From Bacteroidota bacterium (lineage in GTDB: Bacteria; Bacteroidota; Bacteroidia; Chitinophagales; Chitinophagaceae): a stretch of DNA of 64,000 bases. Below are positions 4,141-35,217 of the stretch, piece after piece. The number at the start of each line of letters is the position of its first letter. The stretch's first letter is position 1. Where the stretch lies: assembly GCA_028876495.1 (NCBI GenBank), contig JAGWRO010000011.1, positions 62,001-126,000 of the forward strand, given 5' to 3'. The notes beneath the pieces are model-generated. The model made no database searches. It saw nothing but the letters and a program-made list of their open reading frames with translations, and was not told the DNA's origin. The position numbers were made by a program, and so were the translations under genes.

Positions 4141-4175
4141 ATTAAACGAAATTGTATTGGGTATTTATTATTTTG
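4141..4175 (+). repeat. 34-bp dispersed repeat copy (one-base insertion)
   Basis: ATTAAAC (one mismatch to AGTAAAC) is followed by 14 bases ending in ATTGGG and then TATTTATTATTTTG, one base longer than the usual right block. It lies upstream of the gene at 4487. Confidence 0.6.
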
Positions 4176-4486
4176 ATTGGTTAAACACCAACGATAACAA
4201 GTTGCTTCACTATGGGAAGTTTTAATTTGAATGCTTTGATTTATCGGAATCTTTCTTTTTATTTGTATTTCCAACACTTAAGAAATACTGCTCCAGGTTC
4301 CTTTAACTTCCTTTACAATATCTCCTGAAAATCAAATGCTTTTTTGCATTTATAATGGTTGACTACACCATTCCCAATTCTCCTTTATTTTTTATCTGAA
4401 TATAACCATGTTATCAAAATACAGGTTATAAGAATAAATGTTGCAAACAAATGAGAGCACAATCAGTAAATCATTAATAAATTATT

Positions 4487-5011
4487 ATGAAAATAAAAAT
4501 CATTGTACTTGTAGCAATTATTCTTCCCTGCTGCAGCTATTCGCAAATTAAAAACTACCAAAATACTCAAACAAAATATTATCAGAAGGTTCAGGCAGGT
4601 AATAACCATAAGGCAAAAATCAATGAAGTTTTAATGTATACCTGCCAATTTGTAGCCGGCAGCGCAGACGGCGTTAACCAGGCACTCGTTCATCATTACC
4701 TCGGAATGGGAAACAGGTTTTGGGATTTCCAGACTTCATGGAAAAACAAATACAAAAATTATGATAAAGGTGATTTAAGGCCGGCCTTTCCGGGAGCCAC
4801 TTCAATTGCAGTTAGTTTTACAGACGGCTATCATTTGACCCGTATGATAGACAGGGCTTTTTCTTTAGGTTCTATCGGGTTTGCATTAGGAGAAAAACAA
4901 TCTTTTAAAAGCATAGCGAAAAAAATCATCATTTCTTCCCTGGTAAACAGGGCAGGTTTTTTACTATTCTATAATGTGATTTACCCCGGAAACAGGGCAA
5001 AAAGAACTTAA
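4487..5011 (+). CDS. Secreted protein of unknown function
   Basis: The protein is 174 residues long. An N-terminal signal peptide (MKIKIIVLVAIILPCCSYSQ) ends near residue 19-20, so the protein is exported. The body contains the segments FVAGSADGVNQALVHHY (about 56-72), FWDFQTSWKNKY and FTDGYHLTRMIDRA (about 111-124), with many aromatic and charged residues and a C-terminal hydrophobic stretch. Proteins of this kind occur across Bacteroidota with no assigned role, and I do not recognise a characterised family. It stands alone, convergent with the serine hydrolase at 5114-6367. Confidence 0.7.
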   Translation: MKIKIIVLVAIILPCCSYSQIKNYQNTQTKYYQKVQAGNNHKAKINEVLMYTCQFVAGSADGVNQALVHHYLGMGNRFWDFQTSWKNKYKNYDKGDLRPAFPGATSIAVSFTDGYHLTRMIDRAFSLGSIGFALGEKQSFKSIAKKIIISSLVNRAGFLLFYNVIYPGNRAKRT

Positions 5012-5055
5012 ACGTTTTGGCGGGGCATTTATTAAAAGAAAGATGGCAAGAGTAT

Positions 5056-5089
5056 AGTAAACCAACTTTTATTGGGTATTTTTATTTTG
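5056..5089 (+). repeat. 34-bp dispersed repeat, perfect copy
   Basis: Exact AGTAAAC (5056-5062), a 14-base spacer CAACTTTTATTGGG, and exact TATTTTTATTTTG (5077-5089). It sits between two convergent genes, so it cannot be a promoter for either neighbour. Confidence 0.75.
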
Positions 5090-5113
5090 AATTAACTGTT
5101 ATCTAAACCAGGT

Positions 5114-6367
5114 TTATTGTTGATAACACTTTAAGATAGCTTCAAAAATTTGCTTGCGTACAGGATTTAAATTATAATAATCTCCATTGTTCAATAACCC
5201 CATATTCTGGCGATTGATCAAAAGGATCACCGACAAATTATATTGAGGAATTACAACAATACTGGTACCTGTAAATCCGAGATGGCCAAAAGTACCCACG
5301 GGCCCATCTTTGATGAAGGAATCCGTGGTATCCATCATCCAGCCCAATCCATTATTGAATTTATCCTTCACGAAAAAAGAAGCAATCACGTTTGCCGAAA
5401 TAAATTGTTTGTTTCCCACTTTCCCTTTATGCATCAGCATGTCCACTAATTGCTGCATGTCGTCAACCGTAGAAAATAAACCTGCCGAACCGGCAATACC
5501 TCCATTGGCATACCATGCATTACCATCATTTACTTCACCTTTTAACACATAGTTTCTCCATCCGTTCCAACTTGTTGGATCAAGGCCTTTAACTGAAAAC
5601 CCAAGAGAGGAATCATACACCATCCGGTGTTCATATGGATTACCGGGTGATGTAGCGGCAATATTGGTAGTTCTTCCATGCTTTAAAGGATTATAGGTGG
5701 TATGTTGCATACCCAACGGCACAAAAATATTTTGTTTCTCAAATTGGTCTAATGAAAGGCCCGAAACTTTTTCAATAATTTCACCCAGCAATATAAAACC
5801 CAGGTCGCTATAACTGCGCTTTACACCTACCGGGTATTTAAGCGGTAAGGCACCGATCACTTTATAGGTTGTTTCCTTATTGGAAGAAAAATAAAAAAGC
5901 GGGTACCATTCGATGAGGCCGGCAGTATGGGTAAGCAGGTTCCTGATCGTTATCTCCTTTTTTTCAGGTGTATCAAAACTTTTAATATACTTTCCAACGG
6001 GGTCATCTACTTTAATAAGTCCCCTGTCAACCAGCAACATAATTGAGGTAGTTGTGCCGATAACTTTGGTAAGGGAAGCCATGTCAAAAAGTGTAGCAGT
6101 ATTCATTGGCGCAGGAGGGTTGAGCAGATGATGGTGGAAATCATATTTCTGCGCATAACCATAGGCGTGATGGTAAATAATTTTACCGTCTTTTTTTATT
6201 TGAATTACCGCTCCCGGTATTTGGTCATTAGCAACCTGGCTATTTAGTATACTGTCAATTTCCGTAAGCAGTTTTGTTTCATTTTTTTTATGGCTTATAC
6301 TTTGACTCTTTAAAATACCGGTAATAAAACATAACAGGAATAGTATAAACAATAATTTTTTTCTCAT
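5114..6367 (-). CDS. Secreted serine hydrolase (class C beta-lactamase/PBP-like)
   Basis: The 417-residue protein has a signal peptide (cleavage near residue 22). Motifs of the beta-lactamase-fold serine hydrolases are clear: SLTK (Ser98-Lys101), YSD (Tyr186-Asp188) and a late HLGFTGTS, corresponding to the HxG/KTG motif. Such proteins act on D-amino-acid peptides or esters in the periplasm. It is the last gene of a three-gene unit with the GNAT enzyme and symporter upstream (57-base gap to the GNAT stop). That set is seen near peptidoglycan-recycling genes in Bacteroidota, so a role in cell-wall fragment use is plausible but inferred. Confidence 0.88.
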   Translation of the reverse strand: MRKKLLFILFLLCFITGILKSQSISHKKNETKLLTEIDSILNSQVANDQIPGAVIQIKKDGKIIYHHAYGYAQKYDFHHHLLNPPAPMNTATLFDMASLTKVIGTTTSIMLLVDRGLIKVDDPVGKYIKSFDTPEKKEITIRNLLTHTAGLIEWYPLFYFSSNKETTYKVIGALPLKYPVGVKRSYSDLGFILLGEIIEKVSGLSLDQFEKQNIFVPLGMQHTTYNPLKHGRTTNIAATSPGNPYEHRMVYDSSLGFSVKGLDPTSWNGWRNYVLKGEVNDGNAWYANGGIAGSAGLFSTVDDMQQLVDMLMHKGKVGNKQFISANVIASFFVKDKFNNGLGWMMDTTDSFIKDGPVGTFGHLGFTGTSIVVIPQYNLSVILLINRQNMGLLNNGDYYNLNPVRKQIFEAILKCYQQ

Positions 6368-6424
6368 GTAATTGGATTTTTAAATATCGAACGTTTATAA
6401 TAATTTTAAATAAAACTTGTTAGA

Positions 6425-6934
6425 TCAGGAATTATCATCATCCGGTTGAGCAACATAGCCAAGCCTTGGCCCGATGGTTTTACGGAGTAATAATTCGTCA
6501 AAACCTTCCTTTACAAAATCTTTCAACTCTCCTACCAGCTTAAATCCAAATTCATAATACAATTTGATTGCGCCTTTGTTGAATGATGAAACACAAATAA
6601 AAATATTAGGTGAAATTTTATGAATTCTTTCTTCACAAAAATACAACAACCTTTTTCCCAATCCTTCTCCCCTGTATTTTTTATTAATACAGATTGTCTG
6701 GATATAGCCACTAAATGTTCCGCAAATTTGAAGTATTACAAATCCTGCTATTTCATCATCATTTTCTAAAACATAAATTTCTTTACAAGGCCCTTTAAAT
6801 GCTTCAAGGCATGCATGGTAATCAATTCCTAACGTGATCCACGGATCGGAAGACGACATCATCAATGCACCTACGCCAAATTTTCCACGGTCATTAGTAA
6901 GGCTGATCGTATAAGTGTCTTTATCATGCATCAC
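6425..6934 (-). CDS. GNAT family N-acetyltransferase
   Basis: The 169-residue protein has the GNAT fold. The acetyl-CoA pyrophosphate loop is seen in YRGEGLGKRLLYF (Q/RxxGxG/A motif, about residues 86-98). It is preceded by the beta-4 strand GYIQTICINKKYRG and followed by FICVSSFNKGAIKLYYEFGFKLVGEL, the usual C-terminal signature. The acceptor substrate is unknown. Its ATG overlaps the stop codon of the upstream symporter gene by four bases, showing translational coupling. The pair would fit acetylation of an imported amino sugar or peptide, which is an inference from context. Confidence 0.88.
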   Translation of the reverse strand: MMHDKDTYTISLTNDRGKFGVGALMMSSSDPWITLGIDYHACLEAFKGPCKEIYVLENDDEIAGFVILQICGTFSGYIQTICINKKYRGEGLGKRLLYFCEERIHKISPNIFICVSSFNKGAIKLYYEFGFKLVGELKDFVKEGFDELLLRKTIGPRLGYVAQPDDDNS

Positions 6935-8382
6935 CTTTTTCTTTTAATGATTAATAAGAACAAAATGGTTAAAACTGCATTCATAAATATATTCATAAAT
7001 CCAACATCAAAATGAAATACTCTTATGAAATAGTCATTTAAAACATAAGTAACCACTGCTGCCATTACGCAGGCTAACGGCACCCATTTCCCTTTGAGTG
7101 CTATCTTAGAAAAAAGCCCTAAAAGGTATAATCCAAGAAGAGGTCCATAGGTATACCCTGCAATTTTAAAAATGGTAGTTATGATAGCGCCATGGCTGTT
7201 CCAGAACAACATTACTATTATAAACATAACAATATTGACGCCCAGCAATACCTTGTTTTTTAATTGCTTTCTTCTCTCATGAGGGCGATTTTCAATATTT
7301 AAGAAATCATAACTGAAAGAGGTGGTTAATGCAGTAATGCATGCATCAATGCTGGCGAAGGTAGAAGCAATCACTGCAATTAAAAATGCAATTGCACCGA
7401 TAATGCCAAAATAATGCAAGGTAAGTAACGGGTAAATATCATCGGTATTAATAAACTTCCCTTTAAGGGTAGACAGATGTATTCCGTTTCTTTCGGCATA
7501 TATATAAATTAATACGCCAAGCCCCAAAAACAAGGTTTGTGCAAAGGCTATAAAAAATCCAAACGACAAAACATTTTTTTTAGCATCTTTCTCAAGTTTT
7601 ACTGTAAGTGTTTTTTGCATCATACTTTGATCAAGTCCTACAAGTGCAACTGTAATTAACAGCCCGGAAATAAATTGTTTAAAAAAATTAGTACCTGAAT
7701 GCATATCCCAATCAAAAAGCCGCGAATAAGGATGGCTGGCAATGGTTGTAAACATACCTGAAAAAGAAAGGCCCAAAGAATGCTTAATGGTAAATATTGA
7801 AATAATAATAACCGTAACAAGGAATAAAGATTGTAAAGCATCTGTCCATACAATCGTTTTAATACCTGATTTATTGGTATATAACCAAATGAGAACTAAC
7901 ACAATTATAATGGTAACAAAATAAGGAATATGCAAAGCATCAAAAAAGGCATATTGTAAAATTTTAATGGACAAAAGTAATCGCAGTGCCGCTCCAAAAG
8001 ATTGAGATACCAAAAAGAACAATGACCCGGTTTTATAAGCAGTATCGCCAAACCGCACATTAAGGTAACTATAAATAGAAACTACCTTCAGCTTAAAGTA
8101 AATAGGAATTAATATAAACGCGATAAAGAGATTCCCCGCTATGGTACCGAGGATAAACTGGAAGAAATACATATTCTCGTTGCCTACATTCCCTGGAATT
8201 GAAACAAGTGAAACAGCAGAAATGCCAGAACCTATCATGCCAAAAGCAACCAGGAACCAGGGAGATTCTCTGTTTCCGTCAAAAAAAGTTGTATCCCGTG
8301 TATGCCTTGACGTGAGATACGATATAAACATCAACAATGAAAAATATGCGAGGATTATTAAAAAAATCAGCGTTGCACTCAT
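6931..8382 (-). CDS. Sodium:solute symporter (SSS family)
   Basis: The 483-residue integral membrane protein has about 13 predicted helices, which is the normal size for the SSS/SLC5 family. The N-terminal segment ending GSGISAVSLVSIPGNVG and the central IWLYTNKSGIKTIVWTDALQ match the conserved SSS regions. These carriers use the sodium gradient to import sugars, amino acids or similar solutes. The substrate is not evident. It is first in the operon with the GNAT enzyme and the serine hydrolase, so an amino sugar or muropeptide-derived solute is a reasonable guess. Confidence 0.9.
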   Translation of the reverse strand: MSATLIFLIILAYFSLLMFISYLTSRHTRDTTFFDGNRESPWFLVAFGMIGSGISAVSLVSIPGNVGNENMYFFQFILGTIAGNLFIAFILIPIYFKLKVVSIYSYLNVRFGDTAYKTGSLFFLVSQSFGAALRLLLSIKILQYAFFDALHIPYFVTIIIVLVLIWLYTNKSGIKTIVWTDALQSLFLVTVIIISIFTIKHSLGLSFSGMFTTIASHPYSRLFDWDMHSGTNFFKQFISGLLITVALVGLDQSMMQKTLTVKLEKDAKKNVLSFGFFIAFAQTLFLGLGVLIYIYAERNGIHLSTLKGKFINTDDIYPLLTLHYFGIIGAIAFLIAVIASTFASIDACITALTTSFSYDFLNIENRPHERRKQLKNKVLLGVNIVMFIIVMLFWNSHGAIITTIFKIAGYTYGPLLGLYLLGLFSKIALKGKWVPLACVMAAVVTYVLNDYFIRVFHFDVGFMNIFMNAVLTILFLLIIKRKR

Positions 8383-8541
8383 TACTTAATTTTAATAAAA
8401 GATAGTCTTCATGCTTATTATTAAGGTTACTTTTTTTCAAATGCAATGTTAGGATTATTATTTATTAATAAGCACAGGAAGGAACAGCGGGTGAGAAATC
8501 CAACATAAAGTAGATAACCGCAATAAATTCTACAAAGGCAT

Positions 8542-8575
8542 AGTAAACATACTTCCGTTGAGTATTTTTATTTTA
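8542..8575 (+). repeat. 34-bp dispersed repeat copy
   Basis: Exact AGTAAAC (8542-8548), a 14-base spacer, then TATTTTTATTTTA (12 of 13). It ends 39 bases before the start codon at 8615, in the same direction, so a promoter role is possible here. Confidence 0.65.
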
Positions 8576-8614
8576 TGATGATGCAGGTCATCAAAATACT
8601 TAAATTTATACTTC

Positions 8615-9079
8615 ATGAATTCTCACTTAGAAATCAATGACGAAGATTTTGAAATCCTGTTTCAAAAAAGCTCTCTTCCAGCTTCCCTGTTTACCCATGA
8701 AGCCCATTTGCGGCTTGCTTGGATTCAGATAAATAAATATGGAACGGAAGAAGCGATCAAAAATATTTGTGATCAGTTATCAAACTATGTTGAATTAATT
8801 GGTGCCGGTGATAAATATAATAAGACACTTACCATTGCTGCAATCAAAGCAGTAAGCCATTTCAATAATAAGTGCAAATTAAATAGTTTCAAAGATTTTA
8901 TTGAATTGTTTCCCAGGTTAAAATATAATTTTAAAGAGTTAATGGCTCTTCATTACCAAAATGATATTTATAATTCAGAAAGGGCAAAGAGAGAATATAT
9001 TGAGCCAGACCTGTTGGCATTTTCCAAGCAAATGCAGCTAACTTCAAATTTGAGAAAAAAATTCCATCGTTCTTTTTGA
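8615..9079 (+). CDS. Conserved hypothetical protein
   Basis: The 154-residue cytoplasmic protein has no signal peptide or membrane helix. It is predicted mostly helical, with segments LFTHEAHLRLAWIQINKYG (about 24-42) and AIKAVSHFNNK (about 71-81) that look conserved. I recognise it only as a type of small uncharacterised protein seen in Bacteroidota. It lies between two copies of the 34-bp repeat (8542 and 9085). Confidence 0.65.
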   Translation: MNSHLEINDEDFEILFQKSSLPASLFTHEAHLRLAWIQINKYGTEEAIKNICDQLSNYVELIGAGDKYNKTLTIAAIKAVSHFNNKCKLNSFKDFIELFPRLKYNFKELMALHYQNDIYNSERAKREYIEPDLLAFSKQMQLTSNLRKKFHRSF

Positions 9080-9084
9080 GGAAG

Positions 9085-9118
9085 AGTAAACGAACTTTTT
9101 TGGGGTATTTTTATTTTG
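9085..9118 (+). repeat. 34-bp dispersed repeat copy
   Basis: Exact AGTAAAC (9085-9091), spacer GAACTTTTTTGGGG (14 bases), and exact TATTTTTATTTTG (9106-9118). It ends 109 bases before the gene at 9228, in the same direction. Confidence 0.7.
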
Positions 9119-9227
9119 GATACAACCTTGTTACCTGTTAGCATCCCGCCAACCGTTGCAGGAACTACTTCAGATTGTCTTCAGAATTGTTATTTAGGTT
9201 TGGTAACATTTTAAATATATTCCCAAC

Positions 9228-10229
9228 ATGAAAAAAATATTACTCATCTGTACCGTCTTGATTTTATCCAAAGGAAACCTATTTGCCCAGTCATCAGGGT
9301 ATCACCTGGCAGAAAGTTTTCATATTAAAAGTAATGGCTGGTGGGATTACATAGCCGTCAATAAAAACAAATTATATGTGTCGCACGGCACCCAGGTAAA
9401 TATTCTTAATAAAAATAACGGCGATTCCATTGGTGTTATTCCGGATACCAAAGGTGTGCATGGTATTGCTTTCGTGAATACACTGAATAAGGGATATACC
9501 AGCAATGGAGGTGCTGATAATGTAACCGTATTTGATCTTTCTAACGATAAGGTATTAGGTGAAATACCCACCGGCAAAGATCCTGATGCGATTTTTTATG
9601 ATGATTATTCCAAAAAAATAATTACCTGCAATGGCAGGGACGCCAGCCTTTCAGTAATTGATCCTTCAACAGATAAAGTGGTAGGCACAATAGCTTTGAG
9701 CGGCAAACCTGAAACAGCAGTAAGCGATGGCGCGGGTAAAGTATTTGTAAATATTGAAAATAAAAGTGCAATCAGCGAAATAGATATCACCCATTTGAAA
9801 GTGATAACCACCTGGCCTATTGCGCCTGGAGAATCTCCTTCGGGCCTTTCAATTGACCGCCAAACGAAAAGATTATTTGCAGGCTGCGATAACAAAATGC
9901 TGATAGTATTAAATGCTGAAAACGGAAAGATAGTAAGCACACCTGCCATTGGCAACGGATGCGATGGTACCGCATTTGATCCTGAATTAAAATATGTTTA
10001 TTCATCAAACGGAGATGGAACGCTTACTGTAATTAAAGAAATTTCAAAAGATAAATTCATAGTTTTAGAAAATGTACCAACAAAAAGAGGTGCAAGAACA
10101 ATGACAATTGATCCCGAAACTCATACCGCCTATTTGCCCACTGCAGATTTTGGTGCTACTGTAGCCGGTCAAAGACGACCGCCTATGATCCCTGGCAGTT
10201 TCCAGGTTTTAGTAGTTAAGAAGAAATAA
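9228..10229 (+). CDS. Secreted YVTN-type beta-propeller protein
   Basis: The 333-residue protein has an N-terminal signal peptide ending at FAQ (about residue 21). Repeated blocks of about 40 residues, such as VTVFDLSNDKVLGEIPTGKDPDA and LSVIDPSTDKVVGTIALSGKPE, are the YVTN/YncE-like seven-bladed propeller repeats. The protein is exported. Members serve as binding scaffolds or surface proteins and no enzymatic residues can be pointed out. It is a single-gene unit, followed by a hairpin terminator at 10261. Confidence 0.85.
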   Translation: MKKILLICTVLILSKGNLFAQSSGYHLAESFHIKSNGWWDYIAVNKNKLYVSHGTQVNILNKNNGDSIGVIPDTKGVHGIAFVNTLNKGYTSNGGADNVTVFDLSNDKVLGEIPTGKDPDAIFYDDYSKKIITCNGRDASLSVIDPSTDKVVGTIALSGKPETAVSDGAGKVFVNIENKSAISEIDITHLKVITTWPIAPGESPSGLSIDRQTKRLFAGCDNKMLIVLNAENGKIVSTPAIGNGCDGTAFDPELKYVYSSNGDGTLTVIKEISKDKFIVLENVPTKRGARTMTIDPETHTAYLPTADFGATVAGQRRPPMIPGSFQVLVVKKK

Positions 10230-10260
10230 CCTATAATAAGAAAAACCCTTTTTACTAATG

Positions 10261-10286
10261 GCCGGTATTTTACCGGCTATTTATTT
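10261..10286 (+). terminator. Hairpin terminator after the propeller gene
   Basis: GCCGGTA and TACCGGC form a perfect seven-pair stem around a TTT loop (10261-10277), followed by a T-rich tail, 31 bases after the stop of the propeller gene. Confidence 0.65.
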
Positions 10287-10334
10287 GTAAGTCAGCGCAC
10301 ATAAACATCCTGCTAACCTTACAGGTTTAGCAAT

Positions 10335-10589
10335 TCATTTGTACTTTAACTTATAAACAAGGATGATTATAGAAAAAACAAGGGTAATTCCATTGGCTAA
10401 AGTAATAGGTAAATTTGAAGAAAATACTCCATAAAGAAGCCATAAGAGGGTACCAAAGGCAAATAAAGAATACATGCCTAAAGATATACCAGATGTATTT
10501 TGGGTTTGAATAGTTTTAATAGCCTGGGGAACAAAAGATACGGTTGTGCAAAATGCTGCTATCAAACCTATTATTTTAATAGTATTCAT
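10335..10589 (-). CDS. SemiSWEET family sugar transporter
   Basis: The 84-residue protein has three predicted membrane helices (about 5-23, 38-57 and 61-80). The first helix contains the PQ motif in VSFVPQAIKTIQTQNTSGIS, typical of bacterial SemiSWEETs, which dimerise to carry sugars down their gradient. Length is typical. The sugar cannot be told. It stands alone, convergent with the propeller gene. Confidence 0.88.
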   Translation of the reverse strand: MNTIKIIGLIAAFCTTVSFVPQAIKTIQTQNTSGISLGMYSLFAFGTLLWLLYGVFSSNLPITLANGITLVFSIIILVYKLKYK

Positions 10590-11051
10590 ATAATTAAAAA
10601 TGAAAGCGTAAATTACTTCAATAGCTCACGAATTGCTATTAAAGTTTCTTAACATTGTTCGAAGTTTAACACCCGGTCTATTTATTTCATTATAAGTTAA
10701 ACTTGAGATAAACCAATTGTTTACCAATAATAAAATGTAGCTTACAGAAGTTTTTTTTAATTTAATTATAATGTTTATTTTCCTGTTTCCTTTTTCGTCG
10801 ATGGTTTTATAACCACTTTTCAGAAATTCTCCCCCGTAGACTTTGCTTGTAGTGAAAGGGACGGCGTCCCGGGAATCTATGATAAGCTATTGTTTCATAG
10901 ACATGGCTTTTCACAAAGCAAACACTCCAATATTTCAAAATTATTAGATTAAAAGTTTTAGCAAGGCGGTTATGTAACCCGCGTGTGATGCATGTTGTAT
11001 GTTACAGAAAGTTTATGCTGAAAAACATTTAATATAAAACCTTTTTACGCT
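10590..11051. other. Intergenic region before the desaturase
   Basis: No coding frame is supported in these 462 bases. A perfect short hairpin GGGAC-GGC-GTCCC lies at 10858-10870 without a T tail. The rest is AT-rich. A regulatory region for the desaturase gene is likely, but no specific box was identified. Confidence 0.4.
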
Positions 11052-13273: not shown

Positions 13274-13307
13274 AGTAAACAAACTTTTATTTGATATTTA
13301 TATTTTG
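13274..13307 (+). repeat. 34-bp dispersed repeat copy
   Basis: Exact AGTAAAC (13274-13280), spacer AAACTTTTATTTGA, then TATTTATATTTTG (12 of 13). The next gene downstream runs toward it, so no forward gene follows. Confidence 0.65.
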
Positions 13308-13342
13308 TGTAAAAGCCATTTAGGTCAAGAGATATCGAAAAA

Positions 13343-16622: not shown

Positions 16623-16656
16623 GTAATTAAAAACCCGTCGAATTTGTTCGTTTACT
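16623..16656 (-). repeat. 34-bp dispersed repeat, degenerate copy
   Basis: On the minus strand an exact AGTAAAC (16650-16656) is followed by 14 bases and a right block matching 8 of 13. It lies about 80 bases upstream of the DUF1330 gene in the same direction. Confidence 0.4.
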
Positions 16657-17429: not shown

Positions 17430-17885
17430 ATGAAAATCATCAAACTGCTTCTGCTCTCAGCATTCGTTTTCTTTACTACCAATTCCTTTAGCCAAACTAC
17501 TACCCCTTCCACCTTTCACGGTGCCGAAGCGAATTTAAAATCTTACAAAGCCTTGTTTATCCTTGATGAATCAGATCCACACAAAATGCAAATGATTCTT
17601 CATAATATAAAAAACTCATTGGATGATCCACGACTGAATGGAAAGCTACAGGTGGAGCTGATTGCTTTTGGTCCCGGAGTAAAATTATATTTAAAAACCA
17701 GCCACATGGATACCATGCTTTTACCATTGGTTAAAAGAGGGGTTATTTTTGCCGAGTGCGAAAACACGATGAAAATGGCAAAGCTTACTCCTGATCAATT
17801 ATGGCCTTTTGTTTCTTATGTACCGAGTGGCAATGGCGAAATCATCATAAGAGAATCACAGGGATGGGTAGGCATACATCCTTAG
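17430..17885 (+). CDS. Secreted DsrE-family protein
   Basis: The 151-residue protein has a signal peptide (MKIIKLLLLSAFVFFTTNSFSQ, cleavage near 22). The mature part has the DsrE-like pattern: KALFILDESDPHKMQMILHNIKNSL, then LQVELIAFGPGVKLYLK, then GVIFAECENTMKM with a cysteine near residue 111. Members of the periplasmic DsrE group are usually annotated only by fold. The gene directly follows the TlpA-like gene, which suggests that the thioredoxin-fold partner reduces this cysteine. Confidence 0.82.
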   Translation: MKIIKLLLLSAFVFFTTNSFSQTTTPSTFHGAEANLKSYKALFILDESDPHKMQMILHNIKNSLDDPRLNGKLQVELIAFGPGVKLYLKTSHMDTMLLPLVKRGVIFAECENTMKMAKLTPDQLWPFVSYVPSGNGEIIIRESQGWVGIHP

Positions 17886-17917
17886 TAAACTAACAAAAAA
17901 CACGATTTTTTATTTTG
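17884..17917 (+). repeat. 34-bp dispersed repeat copy
   Basis: Exact AGTAAAC (17884-17890) overlaps the stop codon of the DsrE gene. It is followed by a 14-base spacer and ATTTTTTATTTTG (11 of 13). It lies directly before the promoter of the gene at 18004. Confidence 0.55.
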
Positions 17918-20672: not shown

Positions 20673-20706
20673 AGTAAATGAAGAAATAATTGCAATTTTT
20701 ATTTTA
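20673..20706 (+). repeat. 34-bp dispersed repeat, weaker copy
   Basis: AGTAAAT (one mismatch), a 14-base spacer, and AATTTTTATTTTA (11 of 13), in the gap before the esterase gene. Confidence 0.45.
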
Positions 20707-20715
20707 GAACAATCG

Positions 20716-20873
20716 CCTTCGACAAGTTCAGGCTGTCAGTGTTCTTAAACGTGCGAATTCTTTTTACCAGAACCCACCTTCGACAAGTTCAGGCTGACAC
20801 TACTTTTTTGGAGCGAAACTTAAATGATAAATTTCATTCCGGTAGTTAATGTCACGCAGAGCTTGTCGAAGCG
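20716..20873. repeat. REP-like palindrome cluster (three units)
   Basis: Two direct copies of CCTTCGACAAGTTCAGGCTG (20716-20735 and 20777-20796), each followed by a CA-containing end, are joined by an inverted relative. The inverted unit has GTCACGCAG and AGCTTGTCGAAG at 20851-20872. The direct-inverted layout is typical of REP/BIME elements mobilised by REP-associated transposases, a remnant of which lies at 2716-2928. Confidence 0.7.
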
Positions 20874-26395: not shown

Positions 26396-26429
26396 AGTAA
26401 AACAAGAAATACCCGTGATTTTTAATTAG
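26396..26429 (+). repeat. 34-bp dispersed repeat, degenerate copy
   Basis: AGTAAAA (one mismatch), a 14-base spacer, then GATTTTTAATTAG (10 of 13). It touches the 3' end of the isochorismatase-like gene. Confidence 0.35.
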
Positions 26430-27106: not shown

Positions 27107-27134
27107 AAACTTTTATTGGGCATTTTTATTTTTG
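27107..27134 (+). repeat. 34-bp dispersed repeat, right half only
   Basis: AAACTTTTATTGGG is followed by CATTTTTATTTTTG. The AGTAAAC box is missing. It ends 62 bases before the methyltransferase start, in the same direction. Confidence 0.5.
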
Positions 27135-27195: not shown

Positions 27196-27822
27196 ATGAA
27201 CGTTAAAGAATCATACAACATTTGGGCAGAACAATACGATAGTAACGTAAACAAAACCCGCGACCTTGAAGCTTTGTCTTTAAGAGAAACCTTGTCTGCG
27301 GTTGAGTTTAAAAGCTGCCTGGAGATTGGTTGCGGAACGGGGAAAAATACTGAATGGCTCATGCACAAAGCAACACACATTACAGCGGTTGATCTTTCAG
27401 AAAAAATGCTTGCAAAAGCAAAAGAAAAAATAAAGTCTTCCAAAGTAAATTTTCAACTGGCAAACATTACCAAAAACTGGAACTTTATAAAAAAGAAATA
27501 TGATCTTATTACTTTTAGTCTTGTATTAGAGCATATTGAAAACCTGGATGAAGTTTTTAAAAAAGCCTCAATGGCGATCAAACCTAACGGTTTTATGTAC
27601 GTGGGAGAATTGCATCCTTTTAAACAATATTCAGGAACAAAAGCCAGGTTTGAAACAGCAGAGGGCCGGCAAATAGTTACTTGTTTCAATCATCATGTTT
27701 CTGAGTTTACCAATGCGGCAAAAGAAAACGGTTTTGAAATTGTGCAATTGAAGGAATATTTTGATGAGAGCAATCACCCGACTGTTCCAAGAATTTTGAC
27801 CTTACTTTTTCAAAAGAAATGA
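27196..27822 (+). CDS. Class I SAM-dependent methyltransferase
   Basis: The 208-residue protein has SAM motif I CLEIGCGTGKNTEWL (about 41-55), motif II VDLSEKMLAKAKEK, and LITFSLVLEHIENLDEVF (about 102-119), as in the UbiE/Tam/Methyltransf_11 group. The substrate is unknown. It is a single gene with half a 34-bp repeat upstream. Confidence 0.88.
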   Translation: MNVKESYNIWAEQYDSNVNKTRDLEALSLRETLSAVEFKSCLEIGCGTGKNTEWLMHKATHITAVDLSEKMLAKAKEKIKSSKVNFQLANITKNWNFIKKKYDLITFSLVLEHIENLDEVFKKASMAIKPNGFMYVGELHPFKQYSGTKARFETAEGRQIVTCFNHHVSEFTNAAKENGFEIVQLKEYFDESNHPTVPRILTLLFQKK

Positions 27823-28046
27823 AAATAAAAATTCAGCTTATTTATTGGTTTACCGCTAAAAATTATATCCTATCTAAAGTAGAAACCTACATATCATTTT
27901 AAATTCTTACAACCTTCGATAGAAAAGAGTAAAACATCCCAAAATCCATTTCTGCCAAAAAAGAAGGCCGTAGTAATTTCTATATATTCCAGGCTCATTT
28001 CACTGACCAAACTCATACAACAGGCTGACGATTGTTATCGATTTTT

Positions 28047-28065
28047 GGTATTTTAAAAAAATACC
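28047..28065. promoter_or_regulatory. Perfect palindrome before the Hsp20 gene
   Basis: GGTATTTTAAAAAAATACC is a perfect inverted repeat (8 + 3 + 8) located 45 bases before the ATG. Its place in the promoter region suggests an operator. The protein that binds it is unknown. Confidence 0.4.
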
Positions 28066-28100
28066 TTTACTCCAGAAATTAATTATTTAATATTTAAACA

Positions 28101-28106
28101 AGGAGG
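28101..28106 (+). promoter_or_regulatory. Strong Shine-Dalgarno site of the Hsp20 gene
   Basis: AGGAGG lies four bases before the ATG at 28111. Such sites are rare in Bacteroidota, where initiation usually relies on A-rich unstructured leaders. Confidence 0.7.
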
Positions 28107-28110
28107 TTTT

Positions 28111-28560
28111 ATGAAAACAAGAGCATTAACAAGAACAAATGACGTGATGATTCCATCAGTTTTTGACGATTTTTTACGCCCATGGAATGAATGGTTTGAT
28201 GGGGGCAGCTATATCGGGCGCACACTAACCATTCCCTCAGTAAATATCGTTGAAAACAAAGATGACTTCAAATTATCCTTTGCAGTACCGGGTATGAAAA
28301 AAAGCGATTTTAAAATTGATGTAACCGGAAATTTACTTACTATCAGCAGTGAAAAAGAAGAGAAGAAGGAAGAAAAAGAAGAAAACTATTCCCGCGAGGA
28401 ATACAACTATTCTTCTTTCACCCGCAGCTTTACTTTACCCGAAGAAGTAAACAAAGAAAAAATTGATGCCACTTATGTTGATGGAGTCCTAAAGTTGGTT
28501 CTTCCTAAAAAAGAAGAAGCAAAGAAGTTGACAGTGAATAAACATATCACTGTAAAGTAA
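28111..28560 (+). CDS. Hsp20/alpha-crystallin small heat-shock protein
   Basis: The 149-residue protein has an N-terminal arm (FDDFLRPWNEWFDGG) and an alpha-crystallin domain from about residue 43 to 140. The domain includes NKDDFKLSFAVPGMKKSDFKIDV, the charged insertion EKEEKKEEKEENYSREEYNY, the SFTRSFTLPEEV strand and the typical YVDGVLKLVLPKKE. It acts as an ATP-independent holdase that binds unfolding proteins. The gene is monocistronic, with a strong ribosome binding site, an upstream palindrome and its own terminator. Confidence 0.95.
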   Translation: MKTRALTRTNDVMIPSVFDDFLRPWNEWFDGGSYIGRTLTIPSVNIVENKDDFKLSFAVPGMKKSDFKIDVTGNLLTISSEKEEKKEEKEENYSREEYNYSSFTRSFTLPEEVNKEKIDATYVDGVLKLVLPKKEEAKKLTVNKHITVK

Positions 28561-28581
28561 GCAGGTTTTATTCCTACTTTT

Positions 28582-28614
28582 AGCCCCGCTATTGGTTCAG
28601 TGGGGCTTTTTTAT
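28582..28614 (+). terminator. Terminator of the Hsp20 gene
   Basis: AGCCCCGCT pairs with AGTGGGGCT (one G-T pair) and is followed by TTTTTT, 22 bases after the stop codon. Confidence 0.88.
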
Positions 28615-28657
28615 TGTTAGAAAAATAACAATTAGCAGAATGCTAAAATCCGGAAGA

Positions 28658-29716
28658 TCAGTTCACGAGGTTTTCTAATTTCTTTTTGTTTAAAATAGTG
28701 ATTACCCCTTCATTTACATCAATCAGTTTTTCCCGCTTAAAATCGCCGAGGGTTCTTATCAGAGATTCAATAGCGGTGCCGGCGATAGATGCCAAATTAT
28801 CTCGTGTAATATTGATCAGGCATTTTTCATCATTTCCATCTTTGTATTTTTCAACTAAAGTAATTAATGCATCTGCTACTTTTTTGCGCAACGAATTATA
28901 GGCCAACCCTAACAACTTATTTTCATTTTCTGCAATATTTTTTGCCAGCATCTGAATAAATTTTTTACTTACTTCAGGATTACTGTTGATCAATTCTTCA
29001 AAATCTTCGCGTGGTATTATTGCCAGTTCTGTTTCTTCCATTGCAGCCGCCGCCTCGTTGTAATTGGTGTTTTCCAAAAGGTCTACATAGCCAAAAAAAT
29101 CATTTTCTTTATAAAGGCCAACCACCAGTTCTTTTCCATTTTCATTGGCCTTAAAAGTTTTTACTTTTCCCTTTTGAATATAAAACAAACTGTTAGGCCG
29201 GTTTCCTTCTGAAAAGATTAATTGTTTCTTTTTATACCGGTTGATGTTTCGGCCTGTAACCAGTTCGTTCATCAGGTCTTTGCCATTATTCGCTTTCATC
29301 AGCGTATTTAAGCCATTCAAATCAGAATCGTATTCGTCTTTAAGCAACTTTACTTTTTTCAACCTGCTTTCTATGGCTTTCAGCAATTCGGTTCCGCTAA
29401 AGGGCTTGGTGATGTAATCATCTGCACCTAATTCCATTCCTTTACGATAATCTTCTCTTTCGGTTTTGGCAGTAAGAAAAATAAAAGGAGTATTCATGGT
29501 AGCAGAATTTTTACGAAGCATGTGTAATACCCCATAGCCGTCAAGCAACGGCATCATAATATCACATATAATCAGATCAGGTTTTTCGCGTAAAGCAATT
29601 TCCACTCCTGATTTTCCATTTTCTGCACTAAAAACTTTATAGTTCGTCATTTCCAATATCTCAGATGTATTCTCGCGAATCGTATCATTGTCCTCTATAA
29701 TTAATATTTTTTCCAT
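28658..29716 (-). CDS. Receiver-CRP fusion response regulator
   Basis: Start chosen at MEKILIIEDND (29716), the usual receiver beginning. The 352-residue protein has three parts: a receiver domain (residues 1-120, phospho-acceptor Asp in LIICDIMMP, Lys in YITKPFSG), a cyclic-nucleotide-binding-like barrel (about 145-260), and a CRP-type helix-turn-helix (about 290-345, ITRDNLASIAGTAIESLIRTLGDFK). The ligand of the barrel is unknown. It is a DNA-binding regulator controlled by phosphorylation, and the PAS histidine kinase at 30026 is the likely partner. Targets may include anaerobic or stress genes. Confidence 0.9.
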   Translation of the reverse strand: MEKILIIEDNDTIRENTSEILEMTNYKVFSAENGKSGVEIALREKPDLIICDIMMPLLDGYGVLHMLRKNSATMNTPFIFLTAKTEREDYRKGMELGADDYITKPFSGTELLKAIESRLKKVKLLKDEYDSDLNGLNTLMKANNGKDLMNELVTGRNINRYKKKQLIFSEGNRPNSLFYIQKGKVKTFKANENGKELVVGLYKENDFFGYVDLLENTNYNEAAAAMEETELAIIPREDFEELINSNPEVSKKFIQMLAKNIAENENKLLGLAYNSLRKKVADALITLVEKYKDGNDEKCLINITRDNLASIAGTAIESLIRTLGDFKREKLIDVNEGVITILNKKKLENLVN

Positions 29717-30025
29717 GATATAATTTTGATTCGGCATCAAAAAACTCTGATGCAATTTTTTATTTAGAAACTTATTTAAGAAATATATTTATCACAGGCT
29801 ACATTGATTTTACATCAAAACTTTGGCTTTCCTGTCAATATATAGTAGAGCATTTTGGTAGAAAAGATTTCCGGATTTCATTTCTAAATGGCAACAAAAT
29901 AATTTTGAGCCTTCGAACCAAACAACAATCTCTACCGGAAACTAAACAAATACAAAACTACTATTTAATTTCAAATTAAATTACATTTGTTTTTACTGGC
30001 TAAATAGAATTGCAGGCGGTATCTC
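29717..30025. other. Intergenic region between kinase and regulator genes
   Basis: These 309 bases carry no gene. The notable structure is the FNR/CRP-like palindrome at 29804-29818. A separate promoter for the regulator gene is likely here. Confidence 0.4.
29804..29818. promoter_or_regulatory. CRP/FNR-like palindrome upstream of the receiver-CRP gene
   Basis: TTGATTTTACATCAA has the TTGAT/ATCAA arms of FNR-type sites but with a five-base centre instead of four. It lies 88 bases before the regulator start, so autoregulation through its CRP-type helix-turn-helix is possible. Confidence 0.4.
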
Positions 30026-32086
30026 TTATGAAGAAACGATGGAGTGAACTTTAGTTTTAAAAGTGATAATAAATTCAGTTCCCTTATCCCGTTCACTGTT
30101 ACAAAACACTTTTCCATTCATTAATTCCACGTACTTATGAACAATATGCAACCCAAGACCGGTGCCCTGTATGCCTGTTACATTAGAAGCCCTGAAAAAA
30201 CGTTCGAACAAATGAAACTGGTCTTGCTTTGGTATTCCCATTCCCCTGTCGCTTATTCGAACTTCAACATTCGGCAGTTTTACATGCGTAGAAAGATGAA
30301 TTGGCGATTTTTCCGGCGAAAATTTGATAGCGTTTGATAAAAGATTGCTTATAATATGCCTAAGCAAAGAAGGATCAAGCAATACATTATTTTCTCCCTC
30401 ATGCCTATAAAAAATTTCCTGCCCTTTCTTTTGAATTTCTTTCACCTCGTCCAATACGCCGTTTATATGATCTTCAAGATTGAAGTAATTAAACTGAGGC
30501 GCAATCCTGCCTTCTTCAATCTTACCTACATTTAAAAAGTCGTTCAGTATATCTGTAAGTATATTTACAGATGAAACGATGCGCTCTATATGCTTTTCAC
30601 GTTTAAGCTGATCTTCAGGATGTGTATATTTTTGCAGAAGATAAATGGATGACAAAATGCCGCTAAGCGGAGTGCGAAATTCATGAGAAGCTATAGAGAC
30701 AAACCTGGATTTCAACTGGTTTAATTCTTTCTCTACCACAAGTGCTTTTTTTAATTCTACTTCCGTCTTTTTAATTTCAGTTATATCAACAGCAACACCT
30801 AAAAAGCCGGTTATTTCATCCTTTTCATTTCTTAACGCATTTACCGTAAGTGTCACTGGAAAACGTTCGCCACTCTTTTTTACATAAGTCCATTCATCCG
30901 TATTCAATAAGTGTGCTTTACTCTTTGCCACATAGACTTCAAAGCCAGGGTCAATCTCTTTTTTTAATTCCCGTGAAAGCCGTTTCGCTCTTTGTACAGT
31001 TTCCGTTTCATCATGCCAGAGGGATGGGCTATACTTACCGATTACTTCTTCAGCTTTATAACCCAGCACTTTCTCTGCTGCGGTATTAAATAAGGTGATT
31101 ATACCATTTGGATCAGTAGCAATAATTAATGCTCCCGAATAATCAAGAACCGCCTTCTGAAATTCACTTATGCGCAATAATTCTCCTTTCGCCAGTTCGG
31201 TAATCGCTATCTGGTCTTTTAATTTTTTTATAGTCGCAGCAAGTTCATTGGTTCGTTCGTTTACCTTTTTCTCCAGCTCAGTATTTAATTTAATGATCTG
31301 TTCTTCTGTTTTTTTTCTTGCGGAAACGTCAGAAACAAAAGTGATCACAAAAGTTTCTTTTTTATTTGTATAATGTCCAAGGCTTATTTCAATCGGAAAT
31401 TCTGTACCATCTTTTTTTCTGGCAAAAAGGGTCATACCTTCTCCTATAGGTCCGGTTTTCGGATCTTTATAGAAACGGTCGTGGTGTAACGTATAAACTT
31501 TATGAAAGCGTTGGGGAATAAGGATTTCGATATTTTCCCCCTTTAATTCCTTTCGCTGGTACCCAAATAATTGTAAAGCAAAAGAGTTAATTAAAACAAT
31601 TTGCCTTTCACTATTTATGATAACGACGCCCAGGGAAGCATAATCCATCAGTGCACCGAAGCGTTGCTTGGCCTTTAAAAGGCTTTCCTCCGCAGCCATG
31701 GCCCTGTCTATCTTTTCAATTTGAAGTAAATGAAATTCCTCTCCACCTACCGAAAAGGAACTGCACCGCATAAAGCCCCAAAAAAGTGAACTTTTTTTTG
31801 TTTTAAATTCTATCTCTTCTGAATAAAAACCTTTTGATTCAATTTGTTTATCCATGCGGATAAGTTTCTTTTCATCGGGTGTGTCTTTCCATAAAGAAAG
31901 AACCAGGGTGTTTAAAAGGCTATCGGCGTTTTTATATTCAAACATTTCTGCGCCGGCTTTATTTACAAAAACAATCTTCCTGTTGTCCTTTCGGGTTACT
32001 GCCAAAAAATCGAGAATATTTTTTGAAATGGAATCTAGCAGGCTCTGCTGGAATTCTATATTTTTATATAAAGCGTTTCCAGGCAT
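30026..32086 (-). CDS. PAS-domain sensor histidine kinase
   Basis: The 686-residue protein has no membrane helix and is probably cytosolic. It has three PAS domains (about 12-130, 142-265 and 310-430). The second contains the FixL-like RFHKVYTLHHDRF segment. A coiled-coil linker lies around 262-300. HisKA has the phospho-acceptor in SIASHEFRTPLSG (about residue 466), and HATPase_c spans about 570-680, with the N box HIISNLLSNAIKFSPE and the G box GTGLGLHIV. The transmitter type fits the downstream receiver-CRP regulator about 310 bases away. The signal is unknown; redox or oxygen sensing by PAS is plausible. Confidence 0.93.
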   Translation of the reverse strand: MPGNALYKNIEFQQSLLDSISKNILDFLAVTRKDNRKIVFVNKAGAEMFEYKNADSLLNTLVLSLWKDTPDEKKLIRMDKQIESKGFYSEEIEFKTKKSSLFWGFMRCSSFSVGGEEFHLLQIEKIDRAMAAEESLLKAKQRFGALMDYASLGVVIINSERQIVLINSFALQLFGYQRKELKGENIEILIPQRFHKVYTLHHDRFYKDPKTGPIGEGMTLFARKKDGTEFPIEISLGHYTNKKETFVITFVSDVSARKKTEEQIIKLNTELEKKVNERTNELAATIKKLKDQIAITELAKGELLRISEFQKAVLDYSGALIIATDPNGIITLFNTAAEKVLGYKAEEVIGKYSPSLWHDETETVQRAKRLSRELKKEIDPGFEVYVAKSKAHLLNTDEWTYVKKSGERFPVTLTVNALRNEKDEITGFLGVAVDITEIKKTEVELKKALVVEKELNQLKSRFVSIASHEFRTPLSGILSSIYLLQKYTHPEDQLKREKHIERIVSSVNILTDILNDFLNVGKIEEGRIAPQFNYFNLEDHINGVLDEVKEIQKKGQEIFYRHEGENNVLLDPSLLRHIISNLLSNAIKFSPEKSPIHLSTHVKLPNVEVRISDRGMGIPKQDQFHLFERFFRASNVTGIQGTGLGLHIVHKYVELMNGKVFCNSERDKGTEFIITFKTKVHSIVSS

Positions 32087-32175
32087 TAGAATTATTTTTA
32101 AAATAAGTAAATTAAATCATTGAAGGAATATCTCCAAAAGAAAAAAAGAATTCTCATTATTTGTTGCTTTACTAT

Positions 32176-32208
32176 AAAAAAAGGAGCACCCTTTCGAATG
32201 CTCCTTTT
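32176..32208 (-). terminator. Terminator of the M1 peptidase gene
   Basis: AAAAGGAGCA pairs with TGCTCCTTTT around a ten-base loop. On the minus strand a run of Ts follows. It is 20 bases past the stop. Confidence 0.85.
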
Positions 32209-32228
32209 ACACTTTTTAGTTAGGTGTT

Positions 32229-34826
32229 TTATTTAAAATCTTCATCTTTTAAGCCACTGTTTATTTTTGCATCGGTCACGGTTAAAGGAATATCTACCTG
32301 TGATGAAATCGTTATTGAATATGGAATTTTAATTCCACTTACTTCTTTATAATCGGAGTAGGTTGTGGAAGAAGTGCCTGCGTTTGTAGCGGTTTCTTTT
32401 TTCAATTTGAAACCAGTATTTACATCAAAATATTCTTTAACTGTGCTTCCCGCTTTAGAAGTAATATTTACTGCATAAGCGTCTTTATCTTCCACTTTTG
32501 CTATCATGGGTTCCAACGATAATTTATAACCTGCATTTAAAAACTCAATTTCAGGAAAAGGCATCGCCTGTTCTTTGAGCCTTGCACGGGTTTCATCATC
32601 AATCTTCTGCTGCTGTCCCATTGCAGCAACGCTGATACTGTCGCCATTCATCAAAACTTTTTGAATCACCATATTAGAGGAAGTTAAGGTGATTGCTTGC
32701 AGCATATGATCAGGTATTTTAAATTTATTCACCAACTCAATTCCTTGTCCTTGCACCTCTCCTTTTGCTTTGTACGAAAAGTCTTTGACGTCATTTAATT
32801 TATCTTTTCCACCGATTGCTTTCAAATAATTATCGATCACGTTAGTAGCAGTCAGGCCTTGCGGTACCGGTTTCAACGGCTCTCCGGTGTAAGTGTTATT
32901 AGATGGGTCTATATCAGGATAATCATGGTCGGGATCAATGATAATTTTTTTAATAACTGAGGTAGATGGATATTCAAATGTCCATTCACCGCCACGTTGC
33001 CATATTTCAACCGGCAGTTCAATTGAATCGGTTTTACCATTTTCCTGTTCGATCTTCATGGGCACCGGCAATACCATCTGGTCATTATTAACAATAGTAA
33101 TCAGCGCGCCTTTTGAAGGATCATTGTCAACATATTCTACATCTTTCACACCCTGGTCTAGTTTTGAATTGGTAAAGAACCAACCTCTCCAGAAATAAGA
33201 AAGGTCCTCACCGCTCACATTTTCCATCGTTCTGAAAAAATCCCATGGAGTTGGATGCTTAAATGCCCAGCGGTCAATATAAATCCTGAAAGCAGAATCG
33301 AAACGCTCCTTACCAAGGATTTGATTACGCAAAATATTCAATCCATCACTCGGTTTTTCATAGGCTGCTATACCTAAAAAACTTTGCTGTGTTACATCAG
33401 GGATAGTCATGATCGCATCTGCGCCTTTTTTAAACATATAAGGAGCAGATTTTTCTACGTCACTTTTTTGGTAAAATTCCCCATTGTTAAAAACCTTTGT
33501 ATCAACACCATTAATAAAAGTATTGAAACCTTCATCCATCCACGGGAATTTGCGTTCGTTGGAACCAACAATCATTGGGAACCAGTTGTGGCCAAACTCA
33601 TGATTGGTTACACCCCAAAGACCACGACCACTGCTCCTGGAAGAGCAGAAAACGATACCTGGGTATTCCATTCCATTAACAACTCCTGCTACATTGGTAG
33701 CGGTAGGATAAGTAAATTCATACCATTCTTTTGAATATAATTCAATAGCACCTTTTACAAATTCTGTTGATCTTTTCCATGCCTGGGCTTTTGCACTTTC
33801 AACAGGATAAACAGATTGAGCCAAAGCTTTTTTACCACTTGGTAAATTAATGCGCGCTGCATCCCAGATAAATGCTTTTGAGGCAGCCCATGCTACGTCT
33901 CTTGTATTATTGCATACAAAATGCCAGGTAAGGGTAGATTTATTAGGATGATATGAATTTCCATTCAAATCTTCGGCACTTATAATTGTAACTGTTTTAT
34001 CACTCTTCTTAGCCTGTTCAAGCCTGCCCCTGACCGCAGAAGTTAAACATTCGGCAGGATTTTGCAAAGCACCAGAACCAACAACGATAAGGTTAGAAGG
34101 AGCTGTAATGGTATAATCAATATTTCCATATTCAAGATAGAACTCTCCTGCGCCGAGATAAGGCAGTGTGTTCCATCCTTCAATGTCATCAAATACACAC
34201 ATCCGTGGAAACCATTGTGCTATTTCATATATCCAGCCATTCTTTGTATCCAGGCGCCCCATACGGTCGGTACCATATTGAGGAACAGAAAAAGCATAAT
34301 TAATTTTTAGTTGTAAACTTCCGGTTTTGGCAGCCAGGGGTTTTGGCAGCCACACCTGCATACGCGTATCAGAAACTATATATTTGGCCTTCGTGGTTTT
34401 TCCATTCATCACTATGTCTACCGAATTTAATTCATCACCTTTTGTAAAGGCCCGGTTGGCCCACCGGCCGCCTGTGATCAAACTGGTTGCCTGTGCACGG
34501 CTGTCTTCCCTGTAAATATTCTGATCAAGCTGAAGCCATAAAAATTTTAAAGGATCGGGGCTATTGTTCTTATAAGTAATCACTACAGAACCTGAAACCC
34601 GCTTTTGAGCTGTATCCAGAGAAACGGCAATTTTGTAATCTGCCCTGTTTTGCCAGTATGCCGGGCCGGGTTGCCCGCTTGCACTCCTGTATTCATTACC
34701 ATTTGTGGTATAAAAAAAAGGAGCAAAAGCTTTGTGTTGGTCATAATGCGAGCCGCTGTCAGACTGAGAGAAAACAGCGCCTCCTGTAATTATCAATAAA
34801 AATGCTACAATACCTAATTTTTTCAT
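32229..34826 (-). CDS. Secreted M1 family metallopeptidase with C-terminal extension
   Basis: The 865-residue protein has a signal peptide (cleaved near VFSQ, residue 20). The M1 catalytic zinc motif HEFGHNW (about 409) and the downstream Glu in [15 protein letters not shown] (WMDEG) are present. GMEYPGIVF replaces the textbook GAMEN, as usual in this exported subgroup. The catalytic part ends near residue 640. The last 210 residues (from about [21 protein letters not shown]) resemble the outer-membrane lipoprotein-sorting-like domain found in Bacteroidota peptidases. It probably trims peptides in the periplasm. It is a single gene. Confidence 0.92.
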
Positions 34827-35217
34827 ATTTAAATTTTAAGGCGGTGAAGTTATAATATTTCGTTTTTAGGGTGTTAGATTTTATATAAACGGTTTGCTAA
34901 ATTTGGGTTATAATAATTTAAGTAAGAAAATCCCAAATAGAAATATCGATATTTTCTTTGTTTACTGAATCTAAACAAGCAATAGAAAATATAACTAAAG
35001 TAAAAAAAGGATTTATTCTTTGTTGCCCTTTTTGTTTTTCGCGGATGAACAACAGCAAATCAACAAATAATCACAATTCTCCTTTTACTTTTTAATACAA
35101 ATGTGAATGTATAAAATATGATTCCCATCATACACGCAAGTGCCTGAAATCAGTTTTTGCTTTATGCATAATTTTTACTTTGCCAAAGATTATTAATCAC
35201 CATTTTCATACGAAATT
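34827..35217. other. Divergent intergenic region before the pyruvate oxidoreductase operon
   Basis: No gene is supported in these 391 bases. It contains a minus-strand copy of the 34-bp repeat (34933-34966) and, near 35156-35183, a TTTG followed 16 bases later by TACTTTGC, a possible promoter for the operon starting at 35218 with somewhat short spacing. Confidence 0.45.
34933..34966 (-). repeat. 34-bp dispersed repeat copy
   Basis: On the minus strand an exact AGTAAAC (34960-34966), a 14-base spacer and TATTTCTATTTGG (11 of 13). It ends 106 bases before the M1 peptidase start, in the same direction. Confidence 0.5.

Follow-up and report, generated by a model that had tools for sequence, protein, structure and literature searches.

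A bipartite DNA motif of about 36 bp lies dispersed, mostly at gene ends, through the genome of a member of the Chitinophagaceae (Bacteroidota bacterium, assembly GCA_028876495.1; genome G000 below), and is nearly missing from most sister species of the same genus. It was noticed in a stretch of 64,000 nt (contig JAGWRO010000011.1, positions 62,001 to 126,000), here called the window. The motif may be an uptake-signal-like marker of 'self' DNA, a reading that is favoured over its rivals but held tentatively. In a fuller and somewhat more doubtful form, this would be the first uptake-type genomic self-marker of the phylum Bacteroidota, a signal with a core and A/T tracts that originated within a single genus and was spread to perhaps a thousand places by biased DNA uptake. 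Few lineages are known to maintain dispersed DNA signals that encode nothing, and the origin of such signals is an open question; since rich and nearly empty species occur here within one genus, gain and loss of the system and of its protein partner should be traceable.

Definition and abundance of the motif

The motif is built of two nearly invariant boxes, AGTAAAC and ATTTTTATTTTG. With up to two mismatches, the pattern AGTAAAC-N15-ATTTTTATTTTG is found at 403 sites in G000 (4.70 Mb), against four for the reversed pattern. This is a trimmed form of the pattern proposed in an earlier, sequence-only reading of the window, from which the first T of the right box was removed; that base is poorly conserved (present in 21 of 69 sites), and the N15 spacing corresponds to the earlier N14 plus this T. 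The repeat described in that reading is real and larger than it had noted, and its frequency exceeds chance, with 447 matches to the untrimmed pattern at up to three mismatches across G000, against 17 for the reversed pattern, and 10 in the window, where 0.10 were expected (100 shuffles). Within 1.25 Mb of G000, sites with 0, 1, 2, 3 and 4 mismatches to the motif number 26, 45, 75, 71 and 109, and those of the reversed pattern 0, 0, 3, 10 and 61; extrapolation of these counts suggests about 1000 sites genome-wide. The near-constant left box and 14-base spacing of the earlier description also hold, as the distance between the boxes is exactly 15 in 106 of the 138 left/right pairs of the same 1.25 Mb (each box with at most one mismatch, separation 0-39).

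A position table of 69 distinct sites gives the overall form (C/T)AGTAAAC-N-AA-N-(A/T)4-5-N5-7-ATTTTTATTTTG, 34-36 bp in length, with C or T directly 5' of the left box in 63 sites. AA occupies positions 9-10 and an A/T run positions 12-16, followed by a spacer (17-22) that is almost free. Two spacer types can be told apart, an AAYAAATA-like majority type and a AACTTTTATT-like type that is common in the first 14 kb of the window. No hairpin was found: the mean RNA folding energy of 146 sites is -2.71 against -2.83 for shuffled sequence, and -2.65 against -2.68 on the reverse strand. No target duplication was seen at these 146 sites, and no Rfam match in the window, L046, L041 or L051. Because RNA folding equals that of shuffled sequence on either strand and flanking duplication is absent, the motif is most likely recognised as duplex DNA, at a site under active maintenance.

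Position relative to genes

Copies are most frequent between convergent genes. In 1.25 Mb of G000 (217 sites with at most three mismatches, 34 of them outside gaps of at least 30 nt), with genes called by a simple longest-ORF script so that some gap types will be wrong, a copy was found in 62 of 134 convergent gaps (46%, 3.03 sites per kb), 85 of 440 co-directional gaps (19%, 1.27 sites per kb) and 29 of 162 divergent gaps (18%, 0.72 sites per kb), the reversed pattern giving 0, 3 and 2 sites in the same gaps. In a motif-rich relative, G018, the corresponding figures are 29/54, 41/196 and 17/66. Copies with more than three mismatches were excluded (more than two in the target-duplication/neighbour-pair and spacer-composition analyses), and gaps below 30, 34, 40 or 60 nt were dropped, depending on the analysis.

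Around genes of at least 600 nt, the gene interior is almost free of copies up to a sharp onset some 20 nt ahead of the stop codon; copies peak 0-30 nt past it, within an enriched zone from -20 to +40 nt. The stop codon often lies inside the motif, and 15 reverse-orientation copies start at exactly -8 (G000 and G018 together). Relative to the gene with the nearby stop codon, 44 copies are forward and 47 reverse in G000, and 17 and 21 in G018, sites near two stops being left out. Deep inside genes (774 kb of G000), copies with 0, 1, 2 and 3 mismatches number 0, 1, 5 and 8, against 0, 0, 0 and 5 for the reversed pattern. At L048 6295-6377, two tail-to-tail copies 15 nt apart in a convergent gap form a large inverted repeat.

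Spacing along the chromosome

At up to three mismatches, the copies of G000 are more evenly spaced than random placements in gaps of the same classes (coefficient of variation, CV, of 0.777 against 0.923 +/- 0.071, p 0.009), and short intervals give p 0.013. In G018, intervals under 1.5 kb make up a fraction of 0.024 against 0.162 at the same threshold (p 0.003). Copies of the Haemophilus uptake signal sequence (USS) are likewise evenly spaced.

Distribution among genomes

The motif is abundant in five of the 20 genomes of the genus, G000 included. At up to two mismatches, G018 holds 332 copies, G011 205, G005 47 and G014 27, and the remaining fifteen genomes 0-10 copies each. The four rich relatives of G000 are drafts, 72-87% complete; incompleteness does not explain the difference, because the poor genomes include some that are 98-100% complete. 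In a family sample of 394 genomes (10 of this genus), none of the 384 genomes of other genera is motif-rich, the highest count being 2. A search for the exact motif in one genome per species (84,980 species), in which very near records may be left out, returned 41 stretches in five assemblies: the metagenome-assembled genomes 'bacterium clean1869', Chitinophagaceae nzgw140, LS_ISSM_2_bin.58 and Bacteroidota bin50(3d), and a fifth with one Sphingobacteriales hit (L207), the only exact hit outside the genus, which sits in a long open frame. No exact copy was found in viral contigs, nor did named genomes yield anything in a protein-based search.

In G366, of another genus, two copies lie beside aldo/keto-reductase and cupin genes. 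A copy likewise follows related reductase genes of G000, G005 and G013, a pattern suggestive of transfer or old inheritance. Look-alikes of the form AGTAAACGAACAAAAAGTTGA..ATTCTG in motif-poor genomes have conserved flanks and are open in one frame; they were taken as a coding coincidence.

Conservation of the boxes between G000 and G018

G018 aligns with G000 over 189 kb in all, at 80-94% identity in single alignments. Across orthologous sites, 24 located from the G000 side and 27 from the G018 side, the substitution rate is 0.068 and 0.075, respectively, over the 19 box positions, 0.145 and 0.146 in the flanks (40 nt either side), and 0.220 and 0.275 in the spacer 17-22. In the partner genome the boxes carry 0-6 mismatches, with one exception of 13 in an alignment with a long gap. 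The differences are mostly point changes, among sites that had to sit inside a single alignment together with 60 nt of either flank, a choice that disfavours large indels. When copies of the majority type are compared with each other, identity is 0.34 in the spacer against 0.87 in the boxes; by estimate rather than computation, a spacer identity of about 0.3 is expected at this composition. Because the spacer varies freely among copies and orthologues while the boxes hold, the boxes are maintained, rather than the whole element as a block. The motif state of orthologous gene ends agrees in most cases (26 with the motif in both genomes, 38 in neither, 14 discordant), and this sharing of sites is mostly plain inheritance.

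Mobility and changes of gene order

The sequence-only reading had considered a mobile or structural repeat, since its copies at 5056 and 13274 had no following forward gene, and had looked to empty sites in sister strains for support. The structural alternative is the better of the two, both copies being typical of the motif; simple mobility is not supported, given the lack of target duplication, the constraint confined to the boxes, and the failure to find, among the 24 and 27 orthologous sites compared between G000 and G018, any empty site lacking exactly the 34 bp. Gain or loss of copies together with flanking DNA does occur: the G018 copy at C111:8453 lies within ~70 nt that are absent from G000 between the same genes. 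Broken synteny is not significantly more frequent in motif gaps overall (odds ratio 2.0, p 0.12 in G000; 2.1, p 0.11 in G018), with contig-edge gaps set aside (3/37 motif gaps and 7/85 others in G000, 1/39 motif gaps in G018).

A minority type of copy carries TTTT at positions 12-15. It is common in the contig of the window (C89), where all 11 TTTT-type copies (up to three mismatches) lie on one strand and three share additional right flank. Gene order is changed in 6/7 TTTT-type gaps against 20/78 motif-free gaps in G000, and in 4/7 against 14/70 in G018, counts that are small, come from a split made after seeing the data, and form two tables that are not independent. At one locus the order A-motif-gene-motif-C in G000, with direct copies, corresponds to A-motif-C in G018, and such gene gain or loss between direct copies may reflect normal genome plasticity or recombination of one copy with another. 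The region G000:C89:54618-75274 (window to 13307) holds a one-strand run of TTTT-type copies between varied genes and is a possible rearrangement hot spot.

Known types of mobile element were also considered. Y1 transposase genes occur in 15/15 genus genomes searched, irrespective of copy number, and among 21 Y1 loci scanned a few of those in G000 and G018 hold ordinary copies. At L052 11677-12192 (G001), a Y1-transposase-like gene is flanked by GC-rich palindromes, with a half copy of the motif ~100 nt upstream; this gene and its own palindromes are a separate system of the repetitive extragenic palindrome (REP) type. Integron-like or tyrosine-recombinase cassettes were rejected: homology between G000 and G018 seemed to end at motif edges, an effect that was not significant over all comparable gaps, and Phage_integrase genes, found in 11/12 genomes searched, are missing from G005, which has 47 copies. 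Terminal repeats of an insertion sequence were rejected as well, as neighbour pairs are mostly direct and one inverted pair flanks a non-transposase gene, which we take to be an NmrA-like reductase.

A possible self-marker for DNA uptake and its rivals

As an uptake signal, the motif would act through a cell-surface or periplasmic DNA receptor that prefers motif-bearing DNA; DNA fragments of kin would thus enter the cell and recombine, and this biased uptake would repair and spread good copies (molecular drive) where they are harmless, mostly behind genes. This reading is favoured because divergent and intragenic copies, indifference to orientation, even spacing, patchy lineages and a core-plus-A/T-tract design are expected from it, and because the signals of Neisseria and Haemophilus have been described with the same conservation and placement. 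The uptake sequences of Neisseria lie mainly between genes, at permissive sites, and show 97% conservation as against about 85% (PMC2397512); those of Haemophilus combine a core with A/T tracts and are seldom found in coding or recently acquired DNA (PMC7811141). Within the same phylum, Riemerella columbina prefers its own DNA, with no signal proven (PMC7965970).

Several points weigh against an uptake signal. The role and the receptor are both putative, and the uptake role, although plausible, falls short of probable. A ComEC-type pore family, present in 14/15 genus genomes searched (in G000 at G000:C11:50766-51566), does not discriminate, as motif-poor sisters have it just as well. In length and in sequence specification the motif exceeds the Haemophilus uptake cores, and coding DNA seldom contains it. 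Within long convergent gaps (19 gaps, each at least 200 nt), copies hug the nearer stop codon, their mean distance being 41 nt where uniform placement would give 78 (p 0.004), which a function at gene ends would explain better. The CV in G018 gives p 0.106 at up to three mismatches, and evenness is weaker at up to two, with p 0.189 (G000) and 0.141 (G018) for the CV and 0.167 and 0.014 for short intervals. Finally, genes before convergent gaps have a match in G018 in 15/87 cases with the motif and 8/117 without (p 0.025), an apparent preference for conserved genes in a biased sample, since G018 contigs were chosen for holding copies; co-directional genes (5/57 and 32/275) and the comparison with motif-poor relatives (4/144 and 15/392) give no such difference.

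Such a function at gene ends, in which a DNA-binding protein would make the motif a two-way roadblock terminator or insulator, or relieve torsion between converging genes, is the strongest rival, if an unlikely one. It accords with the high copy frequency in convergent gaps, the peak near stop codons and the hugging of stops even in long gaps, and with the motif state shared by orthologous gene ends, although that sharing is mostly inheritance. Hairpin terminators at convergent ends are somewhat rarer with the motif (9/77) than without (25/125), but this contrast is slight and vanishes at co-directional ends (8/63 vs 31/270), and convergent-end hairpins are not uniformly commoner in motif-poor relatives (G013 7/16, G016 3/20 and G001 2/16, against 34/202 in G000). 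Moreover, copies also lie in divergent gaps and, in small number, deep inside genes, sister species do without the motif, and mutual avoidance of copies is not predicted. Slightly less likely again is a non-palindromic REP-like mobile repeat, spread by an unknown enzyme and decaying in place, the TTTT type having been active most recently. REPs resemble the motif in copy number, in placement at gene ends, with the stop-codon habit seen here (PMC3733652), and in patchy distribution among species; the mostly broken synteny of TTTT-type gaps, the gene present or absent between direct copies, the extra right flank shared by three copies and the G018 copy in DNA that G000 lacks would also fit. A mobile repeat sits badly with the absence of target duplication, with boxes that are conserved while the spacer is not, with folding equal to that of shuffled sequence and with motif gaps that are overall not significantly more broken, as well as with Y1 genes that are present in every searched genome whatever its copy number, one of them with GC palindromes of its own. 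The copies also avoid each other, while REPs often cluster as bacterial interspersed mosaic elements (BIMEs; PMC2817692).

A chromosome-organising or segregation site, that is, a polar or nucleoid-protein motif, appears improbable. Even spacing would suit it, as would the sharing of a strand by 122/196 neighbouring pairs, partly an effect of a single run on C89. By strand, the majority type splits 36:17 on positive and 35:40 on negative contig pieces by corrected GC3 skew in G000 (p 0.02), with weak-skew pieces left out (6 of 20 large ones), contig order unknown and signs hand-assigned. This polarity is weak, and in G018 it does not reach significance (15:12 vs 11:17, p 0.28); GC skew without gene correction has no link to motif strand, and the motif is nearly absent from most sister species. 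By far the least probable explanation is the one that the sequence-only reading had raised, a promoter with a different -33 box, to which the position of some copies 39-110 nt before genes had pointed. The Bacteroidota promoter consensus is TTTG / TAnnTTTG. Upstream of genes, the motif is sense to antisense 56:49 in G000 and 30:30 in G018, whereas the standard pattern TTTG-N17-21-TAnnTTTG gives 15:4 and 7:2, and motif density is lowest between divergent genes; a promoter is excluded as the general function because the orientation of the motif is random where that of the standard pattern is not. If the uptake reading is true, the mechanism would be extended to a new phylum and the origin of its motif could be watched within one genus; if the gene-end protein site is true, there would be a terminator or insulator system independent of RNA hairpins.

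Copies in the window

The copies of the window are collected in Table 1. Seven copies of the main list in the sequence-only reading were matched (5056, 8542, 9085, 13274, 17884, 20673 and, on the minus strand, 34933), as were 49619 and 61556 of its weaker ones at up to three mismatches; 26396 and 51749 match only with the shorter right block. The others it had listed fared variously: the one truncated at 1-23 is complete in the full genome sequence, whereas those at 4141, 27107 and 16623 are, respectively, one base longer, half only, and on the minus strand with four mismatches.

Table 1. Motif copies and partial copies in the window (positions are those of the window).
Feature	Position	Strand	Remark
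Copy cut by window edge	1..23	+	whole at G000:C89:61990-62023, 1 mismatch
Variant copy	4141..4175	+	right block one base longer
Exact copy	5056..5089	+	TTTT-type spacer, convergent gap
1-mismatch copy	8542..8575	+	divergent gap
Exact copy	9085..9118	+	TTTT-type, 5 nt past a stop codon
1-mismatch copy	13274..13307	+	TTTT-type
Weak copy	16623..16656	-	4 mismatches
Copy	17884..17917	+	overlaps stop codon of upstream gene
Copy	20673..20706	+	3 mismatches to untrimmed pattern
Weak copy	26396..26429	+	3 mismatches to trimmed pattern
Right half only	27107..27134	+	
Copy	27821..27854	-	absent from earlier list, overlaps gene end
2-mismatch copy	34933..34966	-	divergent gap
3-mismatch copy	49619..49652	+	9 nt from stop codon of oncoming gene
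Weak copy	51749..51782	+	3 mismatches to trimmed pattern
Copy within called gene	61556..61589	+	2 mismatches to trimmed pattern

Other repeats were seen beside the motif. Two similar copies (73%) of a different dispersed repeat, of CCTTCGACAAGTTCAGGCTG type, lie at 20691-20738 and 20752-20799 of the window, and three AT-rich units stand head-to-tail, ~28 bp apart, at 44819-44905. The stretch at L046 11384-11442, which holds a hairpin GTGCCTCTGT-AGAA-ACAGAGGCAC, is found again, ~80-91% identical, in many of those genomes of the genus that were searched.

Comparison with known systems

The earlier statement that no described family matches the repeat agrees with the literature searched, most subscription journals being outside its reach, and the literature examined holds no proven uptake sequence in this phylum. 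With the Bacteroidota promoter the motif shares a T-rich right block ending in TTTG, but it is not oriented to genes and is enriched between convergent ones. REPs of the GTAG/CGTC kind, associated with REP-associated tyrosine transposases (RAYTs), are similar in their 20-40 bp, high copy number and convergent or 3'-end location; the motif differs in being non-palindromic, in having no link to transposase presence and in the mutual avoidance of its copies, and its ends are AGTAAAC and ATTTTG, with no GTAG or CGTC tag. From USS and the DNA uptake sequence (DUS) it differs by another sequence, a longer fixed motif and far greater rarity in coding DNA. It resembles both by hundreds of copies, permissive sites, conservation above that of the flanks and differences between related lineages, and it has in common with the Haemophilus USS the design of a short core followed by two A/T tracts.

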